The notes under the pieces: model-generated
Database searches by the model: none
The model's input: the letters and a program-made list of their open reading frames with translations, nothing else
Told to the model about the DNA's origin: nothing
DNA from: a virus
Direction: 5' to 3' (one strand)
DNA length: 32,438 bases
IMG/VR virus record: IMGVR_UViG_3300042691_010171
Coordinates: 1-32,438 of that record
Made by a program: the position numbers and the translations under genes
Part shown: in pieces, positions 9,404 to 32,322 of the stretch
How the letters are laid out: the number at the start of each line of letters is the position of its first letter
How positions within the stretch are numbered: the stretch's first letter is position 1

Positions 9404-9895
9404 ATGGACCAAGGAAGTAACTTTAAGAAAGAGGTTATGGAGGCTTTATTCAATGCACCCACTAACCTGATTAGTACAAAGGCAATCAAGTGGGCAGCTA
9501 GTAATCTCCCAGATGAAGGCGGAATGGGTACACACAGTACAAAATTCAATGAAGGTCGTGGTGATTATGACCACAACAATGAATCATTCTGGAGAGCTAT
9601 TGGTATGCAAGAGGATGAACCTGATACTGTTAGTAACAAGGTTCGGGATGCTATTCTAGAAATCTGTACCAATGGTGTAGAGGGACGTAAGTCTATGATT
9701 CTAGAACACATCGAGAAGAAGTGTGGCTATGAGGGTATGATCTTTTTAGCTACTAAGGGTTTCTTTGAATGTTTGGAGCAACTTGAAGAAGCTAAAGCAA
9801 AAGCAATGGCTGTTAATCTTCGTGCTCCTGGTGACCTTGATGACCTTATCAAGGAACTTGAAGCTTTACGTAAAAAATTAGGAGGAGACAAATGA
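9404..9895 (+). CDS. Unknown conserved-looking phage protein (163 aa)
   Basis: ATG 9404 (MDQGSNFKKEVMEALFNAPT) is preferred to an upstream GTG that would overlap the previous gene. The N-terminal half contains polar loops and aromatic residues (NEGRGDYDHNNESFWRAIGM). The C-terminal third is a long charged helix, LDDLIKELEALRKKL, with coiled-coil spacing. It ends with a GGAGGAGACAAATG sequence that is the Shine-Dalgarno site and start of the AAA+ gene, whose ATG overlaps its TGA. The tight coupling suggests a partner or substrate of that ATPase, which is inference. Confidence 0.65.
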   Translation: MDQGSNFKKEVMEALFNAPTNLISTKAIKWAASNLPDEGGMGTHSTKFNEGRGDYDHNNESFWRAIGMQEDEPDTVSNKVRDAILEICTNGVEGRKSMILEHIEKKCGYEGMIFLATKGFFECLEQLEEAKAKAMAVNLRAPGDLDDLIKELEALRKKLGGDK

Positions 9896-10755
9896 TACTG
9901 AGTCAAGATAAACAGCTTGATATTCAGTATGTAAAGTATCTCCTCAGTAATCCTACTGTGTGTGTACCAAGTATGCTTCTATTCGGTGAGCCTGGTGCTG
10001 GTAAAACTAGTTTTGCTAAGTACCTCGCCACCGAATTGGAGGCAGAATTGATATTTGCACCCTGTTATGACGGGGTAGCAGCAGATCAATTGGTATACAA
10101 CTGGGATTTGGGTACACTTGTGGATGCTATGACTGATGAACAGACTAAGGGTAGAGAAGCCATGAAAGATGGTTACCTACTACAAGCTCTTCGTAAGTCT
10201 AATGACCACAAGGTTGTGCTGTTGATAGATGAAGTAGATAAAGCAAAGCCCTCTGTAGATACTTTCTTGCTGAGTTATATGCAGGAATGTATGCTGAATG
10301 ACCCACTCACGGGTGTAGTTAAAGGTAACAAGAATAACTTATTTGTTGTTCTTACCTCTAACAAGAGACGTGATTTGGAGGATGCACTTGACCGCAGGAT
10401 TAGTATGATCCGTGAGTTTACCTTCCCTGAGAAGAATGAACTTATACAACAGGTTAAGATGATGGTTAATGTAGACTACAATGAGAGTAAGTTTAACTTC
10501 CTCATTGACTTGGTATTGGAGTATAGGAAATTGGAGGTATCCAAGAAACCTAGTCAGAACCAAGTTGCTGATCTGATACAAGAGTTGTATTTCATTGGTA
10601 CACAAGCAATTGGGAGGAAAACCTCTCATGATATGAAGTATAGAGCATTTCTTTGGAAGATGTCGCAAGACAATGAAGACCAAAGTAATTTGTTAAAAAT
10701 GCTTCGTAATAAGTTTCCAAAGAATACTTCGCAGTATATTGGCTCCATGCTCTAA
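9892..10755 (+). CDS. MoxR-like AAA+ ATPase (287 aa)
   Basis: The Walker A motif GEPGAGKTS lies at residues 32-40, Walker B VVLLIDEVDK at 108-117, sensor 1 VVLTSN at about 152-157, and DRR at 167-169 fits an arginine finger. The length and order match single-domain MoxR-type AAA+ ATPases, which act as hexameric remodelling chaperones, usually with a VWA-domain partner. The ATG has a strong Shine-Dalgarno site (AGGAGGAG) inside the previous gene. The gene at 10829, after a terminator, could be the VWA partner. A DNA-related AAA+ role is the alternative. Confidence 0.85.
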   Translation: MILSQDKQLDIQYVKYLLSNPTVCVPSMLLFGEPGAGKTSFAKYLATELEAELIFAPCYDGVAADQLVYNWDLGTLVDAMTDEQTKGREAMKDGYLLQALRKSNDHKVVLLIDEVDKAKPSVDTFLLSYMQECMLNDPLTGVVKGNKNNLFVVLTSNKRRDLEDALDRRISMIREFTFPEKNELIQQVKMMVNVDYNESKFNFLIDLVLEYRKLEVSKKPSQNQVADLIQELYFIGTQAIGRKTSHDMKYRAFLWKMSQDNEDQSNLLKMLRNKFPKNTSQYIGSML

Positions 10756-10786
10756 CGAGAGCTTGGTATTTAGGTAATAGTGTTGG

Positions 10787-10816
10787 AAAGGGAGTGTAAC
10801 AGCTCCCTTTCTTTTT
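10787..10816 (+). terminator. Intrinsic terminator after the MoxR-like gene
   Basis: AAAGGGAG (10787-10794) pairs with CTCCCTTT (10803-10810), followed by CTTTTT. It lies only 12 bases before the next ATG, so it may attenuate transcription between the ATPase and its VWA-like partner. Confidence 0.88.
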
Positions 10817-10828
10817 ATACTAATTGTT

Positions 10829-11629
10829 ATGCATTTTAGACAAGACCCGTTGATAACCAAACATTTCATAGAGACTGGAGGTAGTTTTACTCATAAGTAT
10901 CTTGGTATAGAGTGCACTGTTACTCCCGAGAATGTCAATAACTTTAATGAGCAATTTATTCAGTCACTATCTACAAGACTTAGGAAGCTATATCCTCCAC
11001 CACCACAACCTGCTAGAGTTCCTAGAGGTCAAGGTAAAGCTGGTGGTAATGAGAAAGCACCTGGTTTTGATAGTAGAGAAGTAAAGAAGACAACTAAGGA
11101 AGCTCTCATTGAGAAGGAACTTAAGCGTCTTGCTACTACTGAAATTATGGTAGAGGATAAGTTAAATTATCCAAGAGTTTTTATGAAGCTTCTATCCCAG
11201 CCACATTTGGCATTAGAGGAGAAGCGGTTAGTACCTGAGGACAAGACAGAACTATACCTGTATGTGGATCAATCTGTTGGTTATAACCAAAAAGATGAGG
11301 GATTCCATCATACTATGGTGAATGTTGCTAAGAAGATTAAAGGTATACATGTGTTCTCCAGTTGGATGTTGAGGTTTAATGATGAGTATTACTGGGATCA
11401 CATAAGGAAAAATGTACCTAAGGGAAAGACTGTTCTTGTTTTTACTCAAGGTTGTGGCGGAGCTTATGGACAATTACCAAAAGGATACAATATCCACTTC
11501 TGTACTCATTTCAAACATGGTCACAACTGCGGTTGTTCTACCATAAGAGAACATGAGTCATATGGTAAACTCTTTAAGTTCCATTATGGTATAGATGTAC
11601 CGGAGAAACTCAAGTCTCTGGTCATCTAG
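10829..11629 (+). CDS. VWA-like protein with degenerate metal site, probable MoxR partner (266 aa)
   Basis: The N-terminal half is charged and helical, with a Pro run (LYPPPPQPARVPRGQGK, residues 54-70). From about residue 140 a VWA-like fold is suggested: ELYLYVDQSVGYNQ (141-154) aligns with the DxSxS metal site, but only Asp147 and Ser149 are kept. KTVLVFTQGCGG (200-211) fits a later core strand. Then a Cys/His-rich patch holds C225, H227, H230, H232, C234 and C236, which could bind zinc. Its position after a MoxR-like ATPase matches the usual MoxR/VWA pairing. The VWA call is inference from strand pattern and context. Confidence 0.62.
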   Translation: MHFRQDPLITKHFIETGGSFTHKYLGIECTVTPENVNNFNEQFIQSLSTRLRKLYPPPPQPARVPRGQGKAGGNEKAPGFDSREVKKTTKEALIEKELKRLATTEIMVEDKLNYPRVFMKLLSQPHLALEEKRLVPEDKTELYLYVDQSVGYNQKDEGFHHTMVNVAKKIKGIHVFSSWMLRFNDEYYWDHIRKNVPKGKTVLVFTQGCGGAYGQLPKGYNIHFCTHFKHGHNCGCSTIREHESYGKLFKFHYGIDVPEKLKSLVI

Positions 11630-11639
11630 TTTTAGATAA

Positions 11640-12210
11640 TGTTTGTAAGGCTTATACAATGAAAGTGTTTTAGCTAGTGAATGCCTACTACGCGAAGTAT
11701 ACATCTAAAGTTGCCATAGTAATATGGTTAAGTTTGGACTGTTAAGTTGTGACTATGCGGTCAGTAAATAAATCGTGATAACTAAAAGTGATGTAAAACA
11801 ATCATGTATAGTTTGCGAGAAAGTTACAAATAACAAAACAGACAAATCAGACTTGCGGGAGTAATCCTATTTGTATACCTAGGTATTGGACGGTCTCTTC
11901 ACAGATTAAAAGACAGTTGTATAAGTGCATAAGAGGGAGGGTTGAAATACCTTGTGGCAAAATGTAGTCCCGAGTGAGTATCGAGGCTGTTGTTAGTAGT
12001 CTATTCATGTTAGTACTGACATGTTGATAGAGAACCCAACGGGAGTGATGAGGCGGAGGTAAGTCAAAGTAGCTACATATCTCTATTAGAATATTGCACT
12101 ATGTGCTTGGTACCATTGTCATGGTAACGGGTTCTTATGTACTCTTACAAACATCTGGTGATGGATAAGAGGGGTGGTAATCAAAGAAATTCCACCCCTT
12201 TTATTTTATA
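11640..12210 (+). ncRNA. Candidate large structured noncoding RNA, about 570 nt
   Basis: No gene of useful size lies on either strand. Local hairpins seen: GCCATA-GTAA-TATGGT with a GNRA loop (11713-11728), CATGT/ACATG (12006-12023), GCAC-TAT-GTGC (12096-12106), TACCAT-TGTC-ATGGTA (12111-12126), and TCTTA...TAAGA enclosing CATC-TGGT-GATG (12143-12170). Two longer-range helices enclose others: ACT-CGGGA (11851-11860, TG bulged) with TCCCGAGT (11968-11975), and AGAACCC (12031-12037) with GGGTTCT (12129-12135), which neatly nests two hairpins. A strong terminator ends it. Size and setting (phage, tRNA about 570 bases downstream) recall giant phage RNAs such as GOLLD and ROOL; no sequence match to these is claimed. 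The 5' end is approximate. Confidence 0.6.
12171..12209 (+). terminator. Strong intrinsic terminator ending the candidate RNA
   Basis: GGGGTGG (12171-12177) pairs with CCACCCC (12192-12198), followed by TTTTATTTTAT. No gene ends nearby upstream, which itself supports a noncoding transcript. Confidence 0.93.
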
Positions 12211-12783: not shown

Positions 12784-12857
12784 GCTCCTATAGCTCAATT
12801 GGATAGAGCAACAGATTTCTAATCTGTAGGTTTCAGGTTCGATCCCTGATAGGAGTA
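12784..12857 (+). tRNA. tRNA-Arg (anticodon TCT)
   Basis: All arms fold: acceptor GCTCCTA/TAGGAGT (first pair G-T), D stem GCTC/GAGC, anticodon stem ACAGA/TCTGT with loop TTTCTAA (anticodon TCT at 12818-12820), and T arm TCAGG-TTCGATC-CCTGA. CCA is not encoded. It reads AGA, the main Arg codon in most genes of this A+T-rich window, so it likely supports phage translation. Confidence 0.95.
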
Positions 12858-16572: not shown

Positions 16573-16998
16573 ATGCCGGAAAAACTTACAGGACCTTGTT
16601 ATCATCTGTTTTTAGATGATGAGAGATTAGCTAAGGATGCTTTTGAGTATACACAGAATCCTCTTTATGCAGATAGAAAATGGCATACAGTTAAGACCTA
16701 CGAAGAGTTTGTAGATTATGTAGCTAATATGTATGCTGAAGACAAGTTACCATTCATTATATCATTTGATCACGATCTTGGTGATAATACTCTTAGTGGA
16801 TATGACTGTGCAAAGTGGCTAATAAATTTTTGTATAGATACTGATAGTCCTTTACCAATATGTATGGTTCACTCTATGAATCCAGTTGGTAAGGCTAACA
16901 TAATTAGCTTGTTAAAAAGTTTTAAATGTGAATATTGTGAGGGCGAAGGCTATCACAAGATGAGCTGTGTTAAAAGTAAAAATCCTACTTTATATTAG
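16573..16998 (+). CDS. Cyclic-phosphate-processing receiver-like protein (141 aa)
   Basis: FLDDER at residues 13-18, a W-x-x-V-K-T-Y-E-E-F segment at 37-46, SFDHDLG at 64-70, SGYDCAKWLINFC at 75-87 and VHSMNPVGKANI at 99-110 together match the receiver-like domain predicted to work in cyclic-phosphate or nucleotide processing (cREC). Such domains are common in phages, often near RNA-repair or NAD-linked genes. The C-terminus adds CEYCEGEG, a possible metal-binding turn. It is not a normal two-component regulator: the acidic cluster is kept but partner kinases are absent. It lies two bases after the radical SAM gene. Confidence 0.75.
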   Translation: MPEKLTGPCYHLFLDDERLAKDAFEYTQNPLYADRKWHTVKTYEEFVDYVANMYAEDKLPFIISFDHDLGDNTLSGYDCAKWLINFCIDTDSPLPICMVHSMNPVGKANIISLLKSFKCEYCEGEGYHKMSCVKSKNPTLY

Positions 16999-17439: not shown

Positions 17440-17511
17440 TTCCTGTTAGCTTAACTGGTAAAGCTCCTGATATTCAGGAAAATGTAGGTTCGACTCCTAC
17501 ACAGGAAACCA
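17440..17511 (+). tRNA. tRNA-like gene with a shortened anticodon arm, CCA encoded, identity unclear
   Basis: The acceptor stem TTCCTGT/ACAGGAA (7 bp), D arm GCTT-AACTGGTA-AAGC, T arm GTAGG-TTCGACT-CCTAC, discriminator A and encoded CCA (17509-17511) are all canonical. The anticodon region is TCCTGA-TAT-TCAGGA, four bases shorter than normal: either a 5-6 bp stem with a 3-base loop, or a 4-bp stem with loop GATATTC and TAT in the anticodon place (Ile, AUA), but with A instead of U at position 33. It is either a truncated, non-decoding tRNA or an unusual functional one. Confidence 0.65.
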
Positions 17512-30574: not shown

Positions 30575-31163
30575 GAGAGCTGTACTTGATTACGATGGAT
30601 ATAAAAGTGTAAGGTCTATGTTGCTATCTGAATCTAAAGCAGATAGGGATATAGGTCTTGGTATACTAGAAGGAGCAGACGAAAAAAAATGCCTTCCTTT
30701 TATTTTGTTTACTGCTATAGAGTTTAGTCATATGGATAGGCACGTACCTAGAACTATTTTATGGGCTATGTATGGTAAACTCAGATGTCTAAGTGCCATT
30801 AATAAAATCATTGATGTAAAGACCAAGTATACTGCAGATCCTTTCGGTTACAATACCCCTGATGCTATTTTAAAACTTATAGATGAAAGGTCAAATACTA
30901 AAAAGTTTGACTGCTCTACAAGACAGTATCTAGATAGGATTGTAGAAAGAATGAGTATTACCCAGGTCATAGATGCTATCATAGTACAGGATGATCCGGA
31001 AAGATTCTATCCATTACAAAAAGACATCGAAGATTTTATAAAAACCCATATTGTAAAAAATAATAGGGTACACGAGTACAAACTGGATATTCCAGGATTT
31101 AGCATGACATTTAGTATGGAAACCGCAATTGCAATAAGAAGACATGAGCTTAACAAGAAATGA
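30552..31163 (+). CDS. Unknown helical protein (203 aa)
   Basis: It overlaps the resolvase by 23 bases and the metallopeptidase/VWA gene by 20. It is mostly helical: SMLLSESKADRDIGLGILEG, then CLPFILFTAIEFSHMDRHVP and LWAMYGKLRCLSAINKIIDV. The pattern may be alpha-solenoid-like (short helical repeats), a guess. Near the end PGFSMTFSMETAIAI is beta-like. No enzymatic motif is recognised. Confidence 0.68.
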   Translation: MENEKVSERAVLDYDGYKSVRSMLLSESKADRDIGLGILEGADEKKCLPFILFTAIEFSHMDRHVPRTILWAMYGKLRCLSAINKIIDVKTKYTADPFGYNTPDAILKLIDERSNTKKFDCSTRQYLDRIVERMSITQVIDAIIVQDDPERFYPLQKDIEDFIKTHIVKNNRVHEYKLDIPGFSMTFSMETAIAIRRHELNKK

Positions 31164-32322
31164 AAGTCTTTCTAAAGTTTGTAAAGAACTAATGTTGAAA
31201 GAGCCCTATTACGGGCTTTTTCTAGTTATGACAGAAAAGGAATGGTCTACTGAGTTACCTACAGCGGGTGTTGCTAAACACAACATCAACTATAAACTAC
31301 GGATCAATCCTGAGTTCTGGGATACACTGAGTCTAGACCATAGAATAGGTCTCACTAAACATGAGATGCTGCATCTAGCATTCTTTCATCCACTGATGAG
31401 AGATAGCTTCCAAGATGCTAAACTATTTAACATCGCTGCAGATATTGAGATCAATCAGTATATTGAGGATCAGTATTTACCAGAAGGTGGTCTAAATCTA
31501 GAATCATTCCCAGGTATTGATCTTCCTCCCAAAGCTGGTACCAGAGCTTACTATGATATTCTGAGTAAACAACAGGATAATCAGACTCTACAAAATCTTA
31601 TGGATGCTATGGATCAGGGACAACCTCAGTCTGAGGATGGTCTTAATAATCCTAACCATGATTGGAAAGAGTTTGAGAACATGGGTGAAGCTGAGAAACG
31701 TCTGCTTAAAACCCAGATGGAGTATCAGATGAAGGAACTAGCTGAAGAGGTTAGAAAGTCCCGTGGTTCAGTACCTGGTGAAATCAAAGAGCTGATAGAT
31801 AACTTCACAGCATTTGAGGAAGCTAAGTTTGACTGGCGTGGATATATTAGAAGATTTGTAGGTAGATCTGTAAAAGTTTATACCAAGAAACTAAGACGGA
31901 AGTTTAACAAAAGATTTGAGGATAACCCCGGTCTTAAGATTAAACAGAAGAAACACATCTTAGTGGCTATAGATACATCAGGTTCTGTTAGCACTGATGA
32001 ACTAAAAGAGTTTTTCTCAGAGGTTCATCATATGCATAAGACAGGATGTGATGTAACTGTTGTGCAGTGTGATACTGCAATTAGTGATATCAGACCATAC
32101 AAGAAGTCTAACAAGATTGAATTACATGGTCGTGGTGGTACCTCTTTTGAACCAGTTGTAGAGTATTATGACGCTAATCAAAAGAACTATACATGTCTGA
32201 TTTATTTTACAGATGGAGAAGCACCAGCTCCTGCTAAACCTAAGGGGCATATTCTGTGGGTACTTAGTTCCCGTTCAGAAATTAATAATAAATTACCAGG
32301 TCAAATTATCAAATTAAATTAA
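31144..32322 (+). CDS. HExxH metallopeptidase-like plus VWA protein (392 aa)
   Basis: Residues 73-77 are HEMLH, and a following NIAADIEIN (96-104) fits the third-ligand region, as in the putative metallopeptidase domain that precedes VWA domains in many phages and bacteria. A charged helical linker (about 150-265) follows. The VWA domain has a full metal site: DTSGS (277-281), Thr333 in RGGTSF, and Asp357 in YFTDGEA. This arrangement is usually paired with a MoxR-like ATPase, and a gene starting one base later may be that partner. It likely helps remodel a host or phage complex. Confidence 0.88.
   Translation: MSLTRNESLSKVCKELMLKEPYYGLFLVMTEKEWSTELPTAGVAKHNINYKLRINPEFWDTLSLDHRIGLTKHEMLHLAFFHPLMRDSFQDAKLFNIAADIEINQYIEDQYLPEGGLNLESFPGIDLPPKAGTRAYYDILSKQQDNQTLQNLMDAMDQGQPQSEDGLNNPNHDWKEFENMGEAEKRLLKTQMEYQMKELAEEVRKSRGSVPGEIKELIDNFTAFEEAKFDWRGYIRRFVGRSVKVYTKKLRRKFNKRFEDNPGLKIKQKKHILVAIDTSGSVSTDELKEFFSEVHHMHKTGCDVTVVQCDTAISDIRPYKKSNKIELHGRGGTSFEPVVEYYDANQKNYTCLIYFTDGEAPAPAKPKGHILWVLSSRSEINNKLPGQIIKLN

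Follow-up and report, generated by a model that had tools for sequence, protein, structure and literature searches.

The sequence analysed here (the window) is a virus record of 32,438 bases, and an ORF and gene check of it left a gene-free stretch of about 570 nt (11630-12210) behind a gene for a VWA-like protein. An earlier note on this DNA had proposed a large structured noncoding RNA in this stretch. The locus comprises the following features.

9892..10755, plus strand: AAA+ ATPase gene (Pfam AAA_5, E 6e-15, above the cut-off), inferred to be MoxR-like within that family; present in all relatives
10785..10812, plus strand: terminator-like hairpin and U tail in the AAA+/VWA-like intergenic gap; similar at this place in L023, L024, L025, L027 and L028
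10829..11629, plus strand: gene for the VWA-like protein, 266 aa with a basic linker; by synteny always directly 5' of the RNA
11639..12206, plus strand: structured RNA with its terminator; noncoding homologues at the same place, fold z = -3.4
12164..12206, plus strand: intrinsic terminator (hairpin plus U-rich tail), matched in position by one in every homologue covering the site

The stretch 11630-12210 was predicted to fold more stably than all 100 of its shuffled versions (z = -3.4). That score is insufficient alone to show an RNA, and homologues were therefore sought. The gene at 10829-11629 led to one relative in IMG/VR, and alignment of the stretches behind both genes revealed several near-identical noncoding blocks; DNA-motif scans, and scans of IMG/VR with the AAA+ ATPase gene at 9892, supplied further relatives. 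Eight other contigs carry the same AAA+/VWA-like gene pair, making nine loci with the window. Clear homologues of the RNA were found in six other contigs of uncultured phages, derived from metagenomes (L023, whose copy is truncated by the contig end, L002/L024, L025, L026, L027 and L028), so that the clear members number seven with the window. These six share with the window a common order of motifs, namely AAUGCYUACYACGCGA (diverged in L028), a GUAC...CUCUGGC hairpin (lost from the window and L023), RGUCUCUUY, UGARAU, AUUGC and GUGAU. Two further contigs, L029 and L030, are near-identical to each other and count once; at the matching place they carry about 420 nt of noncoding sequence and a terminator, the sequence motifs are gone, and their VWA-like protein is only about 30% identical. 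We regard this pair as tentative members on the basis of a similar architecture at the same place; even including it, the family has only a small number of members. Membership of L026 and of L029/L030 was decided on motifs, helices and position. Other matches from the motif scans (L004, L005, L007 and L009-L013) and extra matches to the last DNA pattern (L041-L046 and L049) were judged by eye to be coding-like and unrelated to the RNA, and were discarded. A DNA search of an annotated-phage collection returned no match to the RNA region, the same collection held no match for the AAA+ or VWA-like proteins, and scans of genome collections with the AAA+ profile gave nothing, or short unrelated P-loop matches only.

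The homologues also bear on coding capacity. Stop-to-stop peptides matched equally well in all frames of both strands, tracking the DNA conservation with no frame favoured. The claim that some 570 bases lack a usable ORF thus held, and a conserved small ORF, which the earlier note had named as evidence against an RNA, was not found. Every complete copy of the RNA ends in a terminator. What had been described as a perfect terminator belonging to no gene does have a strong hairpin and a U-rich tail, but it is the 3' end of the RNA, with a limit at about 12206. The RNA starts 9 nt past the stop codon of the VWA-like gene in the window, and its structured part of about 515 nt is followed by the terminator. 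Judged by these sequence comparisons, 11639-12206 is a noncoding RNA, not a protein gene.

Comparison of the homologues showed that the predicted fold is a three-way junction of helices P1, P2 and P3. P1 closes the 5' and 3' ends of the whole RNA; P2 abuts P1 without a gap and encloses the 5' domain; P3 comes after P2 and encloses the 3' domain. The arms, with the analyses that identified them, are as follows.

11639..11650, plus strand: P1 5' arm, AUGUUUGUAAGG, pairs with 12143-12154; unbiased three-helix search, arm swap
11651..11660, plus strand: P2 5' arm, CUUAUACAAU, stacked on P1, pairs with 11916-11925
11916..11925, plus strand: P2 3' arm, GUUGUAUAAG; arm swap, unbiased search, hand alignment
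11926..11935, plus strand: P3 5' arm, UGCAUAAGAG, pairs with 12132-12141; arm swap, search, covariance model
12132..12141, plus strand: P3 3' arm, UUCUUAUGUA; arm swap, search, hand alignment, covariance model
12143..12154, plus strand: P1 3' arm, UCUUACAAACAU; arm swap, unbiased search, hand-aligned covariation

In the arm-swap test each 5' arm was paired with its own 3' arm and with that of every other homologue, and swapping arms between homologues destroyed the pairing. When the search segments were placed by invariant motifs, the observed score was reached by 1 of 720 permutations for P1 (the identity being the best of the 720), by 2 for P3, and by 6 and 4 for two hairpins (UGARAU and 12111-12126); none of 2000 shuffles reached it in any of these four cases. 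In a seven-sequence version, out of 5040 permutations 1 scored at least as high as the observed pairing for P1, and 2 did so for each of P2 and P3; this is a weaker test, because the segments were placed once the helices had been seen. Searching without anchors for any trio of helices arranged in this way recovered P1-P2-P3, with P1 and P2 abutting, in the window, L002, L025, L027 and L028 (0 of 60 shuffles each), and detected a matching junction in L029 and L030 (1 of 60 shuffles each). The search missed P2 and P3 in L026, in which P1 is evident and guided segments allowed both P2 and a short P3 to be read. Unconstrained folding supported all three helices in the window, L002 and L029; it did not produce P1 and P2 in L025, P2 and P3 in L027, or P3 in L028. 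When the helices were aligned by hand, which also set the register, standard pairs filled 293 of 298 cells in sum and changes on both sides occurred at 38 of 50 pairs; for P2, all 69 cells were paired and all 10 pairs showed double changes. A covariance model built from L002, L025, L027 and L028, with the window excluded, matched the window at 11926-12163 (E 2.7e-13); it found nothing else convincing outside the training sequences in 281 kb, and L026 and L029/L030 did not rise above noise. The compensatory changes in six helices among homologous intergenic regions, which the earlier note had suggested looking for, strongly support its proposal of a large structured noncoding RNA in a phage. 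These analyses showed a conserved noncoding sequence with the predicted fold of a three-way junction bearing conserved hairpins. The local elements are listed below.

11680..11699, plus strand: conserved 5' motif, AAUGCCUACUACGCGAAGUA, a near-invariant block in seven sequences
11714..11727, plus strand: GNRA hairpin CCAUA-GUAA-UAUGG, window/L023 subgroup only
11882..11900, plus strand: conserved block, GGUAUUGGACGGUCUCUUC, with the invariant core GUCUCUU in matching position in 7 of 7 clear members
11940..11951, plus strand: hairpin GGU-UGAAAU-ACC with conserved hexaloop UGARAU; covariation of the stem in 7 of 7
11956..12079, plus strand: extra domain inside P3, in the window and L023 only; absent from L002, L025, L026, L027 and L028
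12093..12097, plus strand: invariant AUUGC, in all six sequences covering the site
12111..12126, plus strand: hairpin UACCAU-UGUC-AUGGUA, covarying in six sequences
12158..12162, plus strand: invariant GUGAU, between P1 and the terminator

The 5' block at 11680-11699 contains a UACU/AGUA hairpin with the loop ACGCGA, and its AAUGCC may pair with GGUAUU at 11882-11887. The invariant AUUGC (12093-12097) and GUGAU (12158-12162), which show no covariation, may form a pseudoknot. The secondary structure drawn in the earlier note proved mostly wrong: two of its six helices were supported, two were in conflict with covarying helices, and two are undecided or locally conserved. Its TACCAT-TGTC-ATGGTA hairpin (12111-12126) is paired in 36 of 36 cells, with double changes at 5 of 6 pairs in six sequences. 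A GNRA hairpin had been placed at 11713-11728; it lies exactly at 11714-11727, and the L023 counterpart, CUGUA-GAAA-UACAG, differs by two compensatory pairs and again has a GNRA loop, but the hairpin is absent elsewhere. The GCAC-TAT-GTGC hairpin is conserved among close relatives only: it is identical in three sequences, is unformed in L026, L027 and L028 and shows no covariation. Pairing of CGGGA (11856-11860) with TCCCG (11968-11972) is kept unchanged in L023, but would cross P2 and P3, making this contact a possible pseudoknot. The enclosing helix AGAACCC (12031-12037)/GGGTTCT (12129-12135) overlaps the covarying 3' arm of P3 (12132-12141) on its 3' side, and on its 5' side a helix of the window/L023 subgroup, read from the sequence, that pairs 12027-12033, within the extra domain, with 12080-12086. 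The two-part hairpin proposed at 12143-12170 is not conserved; the 3' arm of P1 makes up its 5' part. We dropped both in favour of P3 and P1.

Searches of Rfam with the window and the homologues, at gathering and permissive thresholds, gave only chance-level matches to unrelated families. Neither the window nor any homologue gave a match reaching the curated threshold of an Rfam family, in agreement with the earlier suggestion that the RNA may be new. The models for GOLLD (even at E up to 5), ROOL, OLE and the group I and II introns matched neither the window nor the homologues; membership in GOLLD or ROOL, which had been raised as a divergent relationship, is therefore unsupported. GOLLD is likewise a large structured phage RNA, but it is often >800 nt and near tRNA islands (PMC12286853), whereas the RNA described here has about 515 nt and lies behind an AAA+/VWA-like pair. 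ROOL, also a large structured phage RNA, is of similar length (659 nt in one example) and, like GOLLD, often near tRNA islands (PMC12286853), but it has other genomic partners. The window holds no such island next to the RNA. The downstream tRNA that the earlier note had linked to it does exist (a single tRNA-Arg at 12784, about 580 nt away), but the link is weak because the tRNA is elsewhere or absent in relatives, the constant neighbours being the upstream AAA+ and VWA-like genes. OLE is another large RNA, one that functions together with specific partner proteins; it differs in being bacterial and in having other partners. Ro60 with its Y RNAs combines a VWA domain with noncoding RNA; Y RNAs are much smaller, the resemblance is by analogy only, and no TROVE/Ro60 Pfam match was found in the VWA-like protein of five members. 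Pairs of a MoxR AAA+ and a VWA protein occur in other viruses, and the part of PMC7824862 used here proposes a role in virion assembly for those of jumbo phages and of the archaeal virus ATV, the latter without a peptidase. The same part of that source describes a metallopeptidase domain in the jumbo-phage VWA protein and reports no RNA, whereas a large RNA lies behind the pair studied here. These comparisons support assignment of the RNA to a new family of a known kind, the large structured phage RNAs, matching no described family. Its constant link to one gene pair sets the family apart, and it would fall outside all known kinds only if the link to the proteins holds.

The VWA-like protein had no significant Pfam match in five members and only weak VWA and Rossmann-like structure matches, none at E <= 0.001. 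Its AlphaFold model has a mean pLDDT of 76, and a degenerate D-x-S/A motif was seen by eye only; a VWA fold is weakly suggested. The linker is basic in 8 of 8 proteins examined (net +2 to +8), which would suit RNA binding and proves nothing, as such linkers are also widespread among proteins with no RNA-binding role. At each of the nine loci the AAA+ gene is followed by the VWA-like gene and then by the RNA, or candidate RNA, and wherever IMG/VR yielded a relative of the AAA+ gene, a VWA-like gene and a noncoding stretch lay directly behind it. Part of this linkage was established by searching with the AAA+ gene; the RNA-motif scans, which are independent of the proteins, gave true matches only behind the pair. 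The linkage may reflect nothing more than a shared transcription unit. Genes downstream of the RNA differ among loci, with tRNAs variably placed or absent, and we rejected a leader regulating the downstream gene because of these differences and the intervening terminator. The hairpin at 10785-10812, about 15 nt before the next start codon, suggests attenuation or processing. A second VWA-like gene lies at 31144-32322 of the window, fused to a putative metallopeptidase domain (DUF2201); profile comparison detected no relation between it and the VWA-like protein next to the RNA.

With about even confidence, we propose that the locus encodes a discrete RNA of about 515 nt with its own terminator that would act in trans, forming a ribonucleoprotein with the VWA-like and AAA+ proteins. 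The RNA would arise either from the 3' end of the AAA+/VWA-like transcription unit or by transcription from an internal promoter of the VWA-like gene; the VWA-like protein would bind it through the basic linker, and remodelling of the complex by the AAA+ protein would serve phage particle assembly or action on a host complex. As a tentative extension, the phage may possess a remodelling machine of the MoxR AAA+/VWA type of which the large RNA forms an obligate component; we know of no MoxR-VWA system that contains RNA. Very few classes of large structured phage RNA have been described, GOLLD and ROOL foremost, and these have no assigned function. What GOLLD and ROOL lack is the experimentally tractable lead offered here by two constant partner genes, one of which encodes an ATPase of a family known for remodelling protein complexes.

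Alternatively, the RNA might work without proteins, possibly by assembling into a homo-oligomer, and the AAA+ and VWA-like genes would then be mere neighbours. It shares its size class, phage origin, elaborate fold and terminator with GOLLD and ROOL, both of which form RNA-only cages, ROOL without an identified protein partner (PMC12286853). The cage of ROOL is octameric. We consider a protein-independent RNA somewhat unlikely in view of the missing Rfam match and of the constant location after a single gene pair at all nine loci, as against the frequent tRNA-island location of GOLLD and ROOL (PMC12286853). Unlikely, too, is a cis-acting 3' untranslated element governing stability, translation or location of the VWA-like mRNA. 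P1 begins 0-14 nt past the stop codon in every member, so that a ribosome terminating there would both cover the 5' arm and compete with P1 folding; the terminator-like hairpin before the VWA-like gene also makes gene and RNA look like one regulated unit. However, an RNA of more than 500 nt that has several domains as well as conserved loop motifs would exceed the needs of a 3' stability element, and a synonymous-site test at the end of the VWA-like gene found no extra constraint and no signal of overlap with the RNA. A self-splicing intron, ribozyme or other mobile RNA is very improbable: large phage RNAs are sometimes introns and paired 5' and 3' ends are common in ribozymes, but no Rfam intron or ribozyme model matched, and the RNA interrupts no gene, keeps a fixed position and ends in a terminator. 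Noncoding regions can be conserved as DNA, but a DNA regulatory sequence or decayed gene in place of an RNA is hardly credible, being contradicted by the covariation of six helices and by the terminator in every complete copy.

The phage is an uncultured, distant crAss-like relative. The terminase on the 103-kb contig L027 is about 25% identical to crAss-like phage terminases and also matched Flavobacterium and Cellulophaga phages, and the terminase, portal and head proteins on L023, the contig closest to the window, are 80-93% identical to those of L027. On these matches the host is probably a member of the Bacteroidota.

Several other observations were made in the window and its relatives. 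The noncoding segment 8509-8674 is 94% identical to relatives over 142 nt, above the surrounding genes, and contains TATCCAGTAAG(A/C)TACTGGCG twice, at an interval of 81 nt that is conserved in the relative L032; it had no Rfam match and no unusual fold stability, and may represent tandem small RNAs, binding sites or an origin. A tRNA-Leu lies directly behind the terminator of the tentative RNA in L029 (5062-5147) and L030 (7101-7186). ARAGORN assigned only a two-base anticodon to the tRNA gene at 17440-17511 of the window, which scored 55.9 bits with the Rfam tRNA model; a similar case occurs in L027 at 3868. A gene at 16573-16998 of the window encodes a cyclic-phosphate processing receiver domain (cREC_REC), with a possible link to RNA repair.
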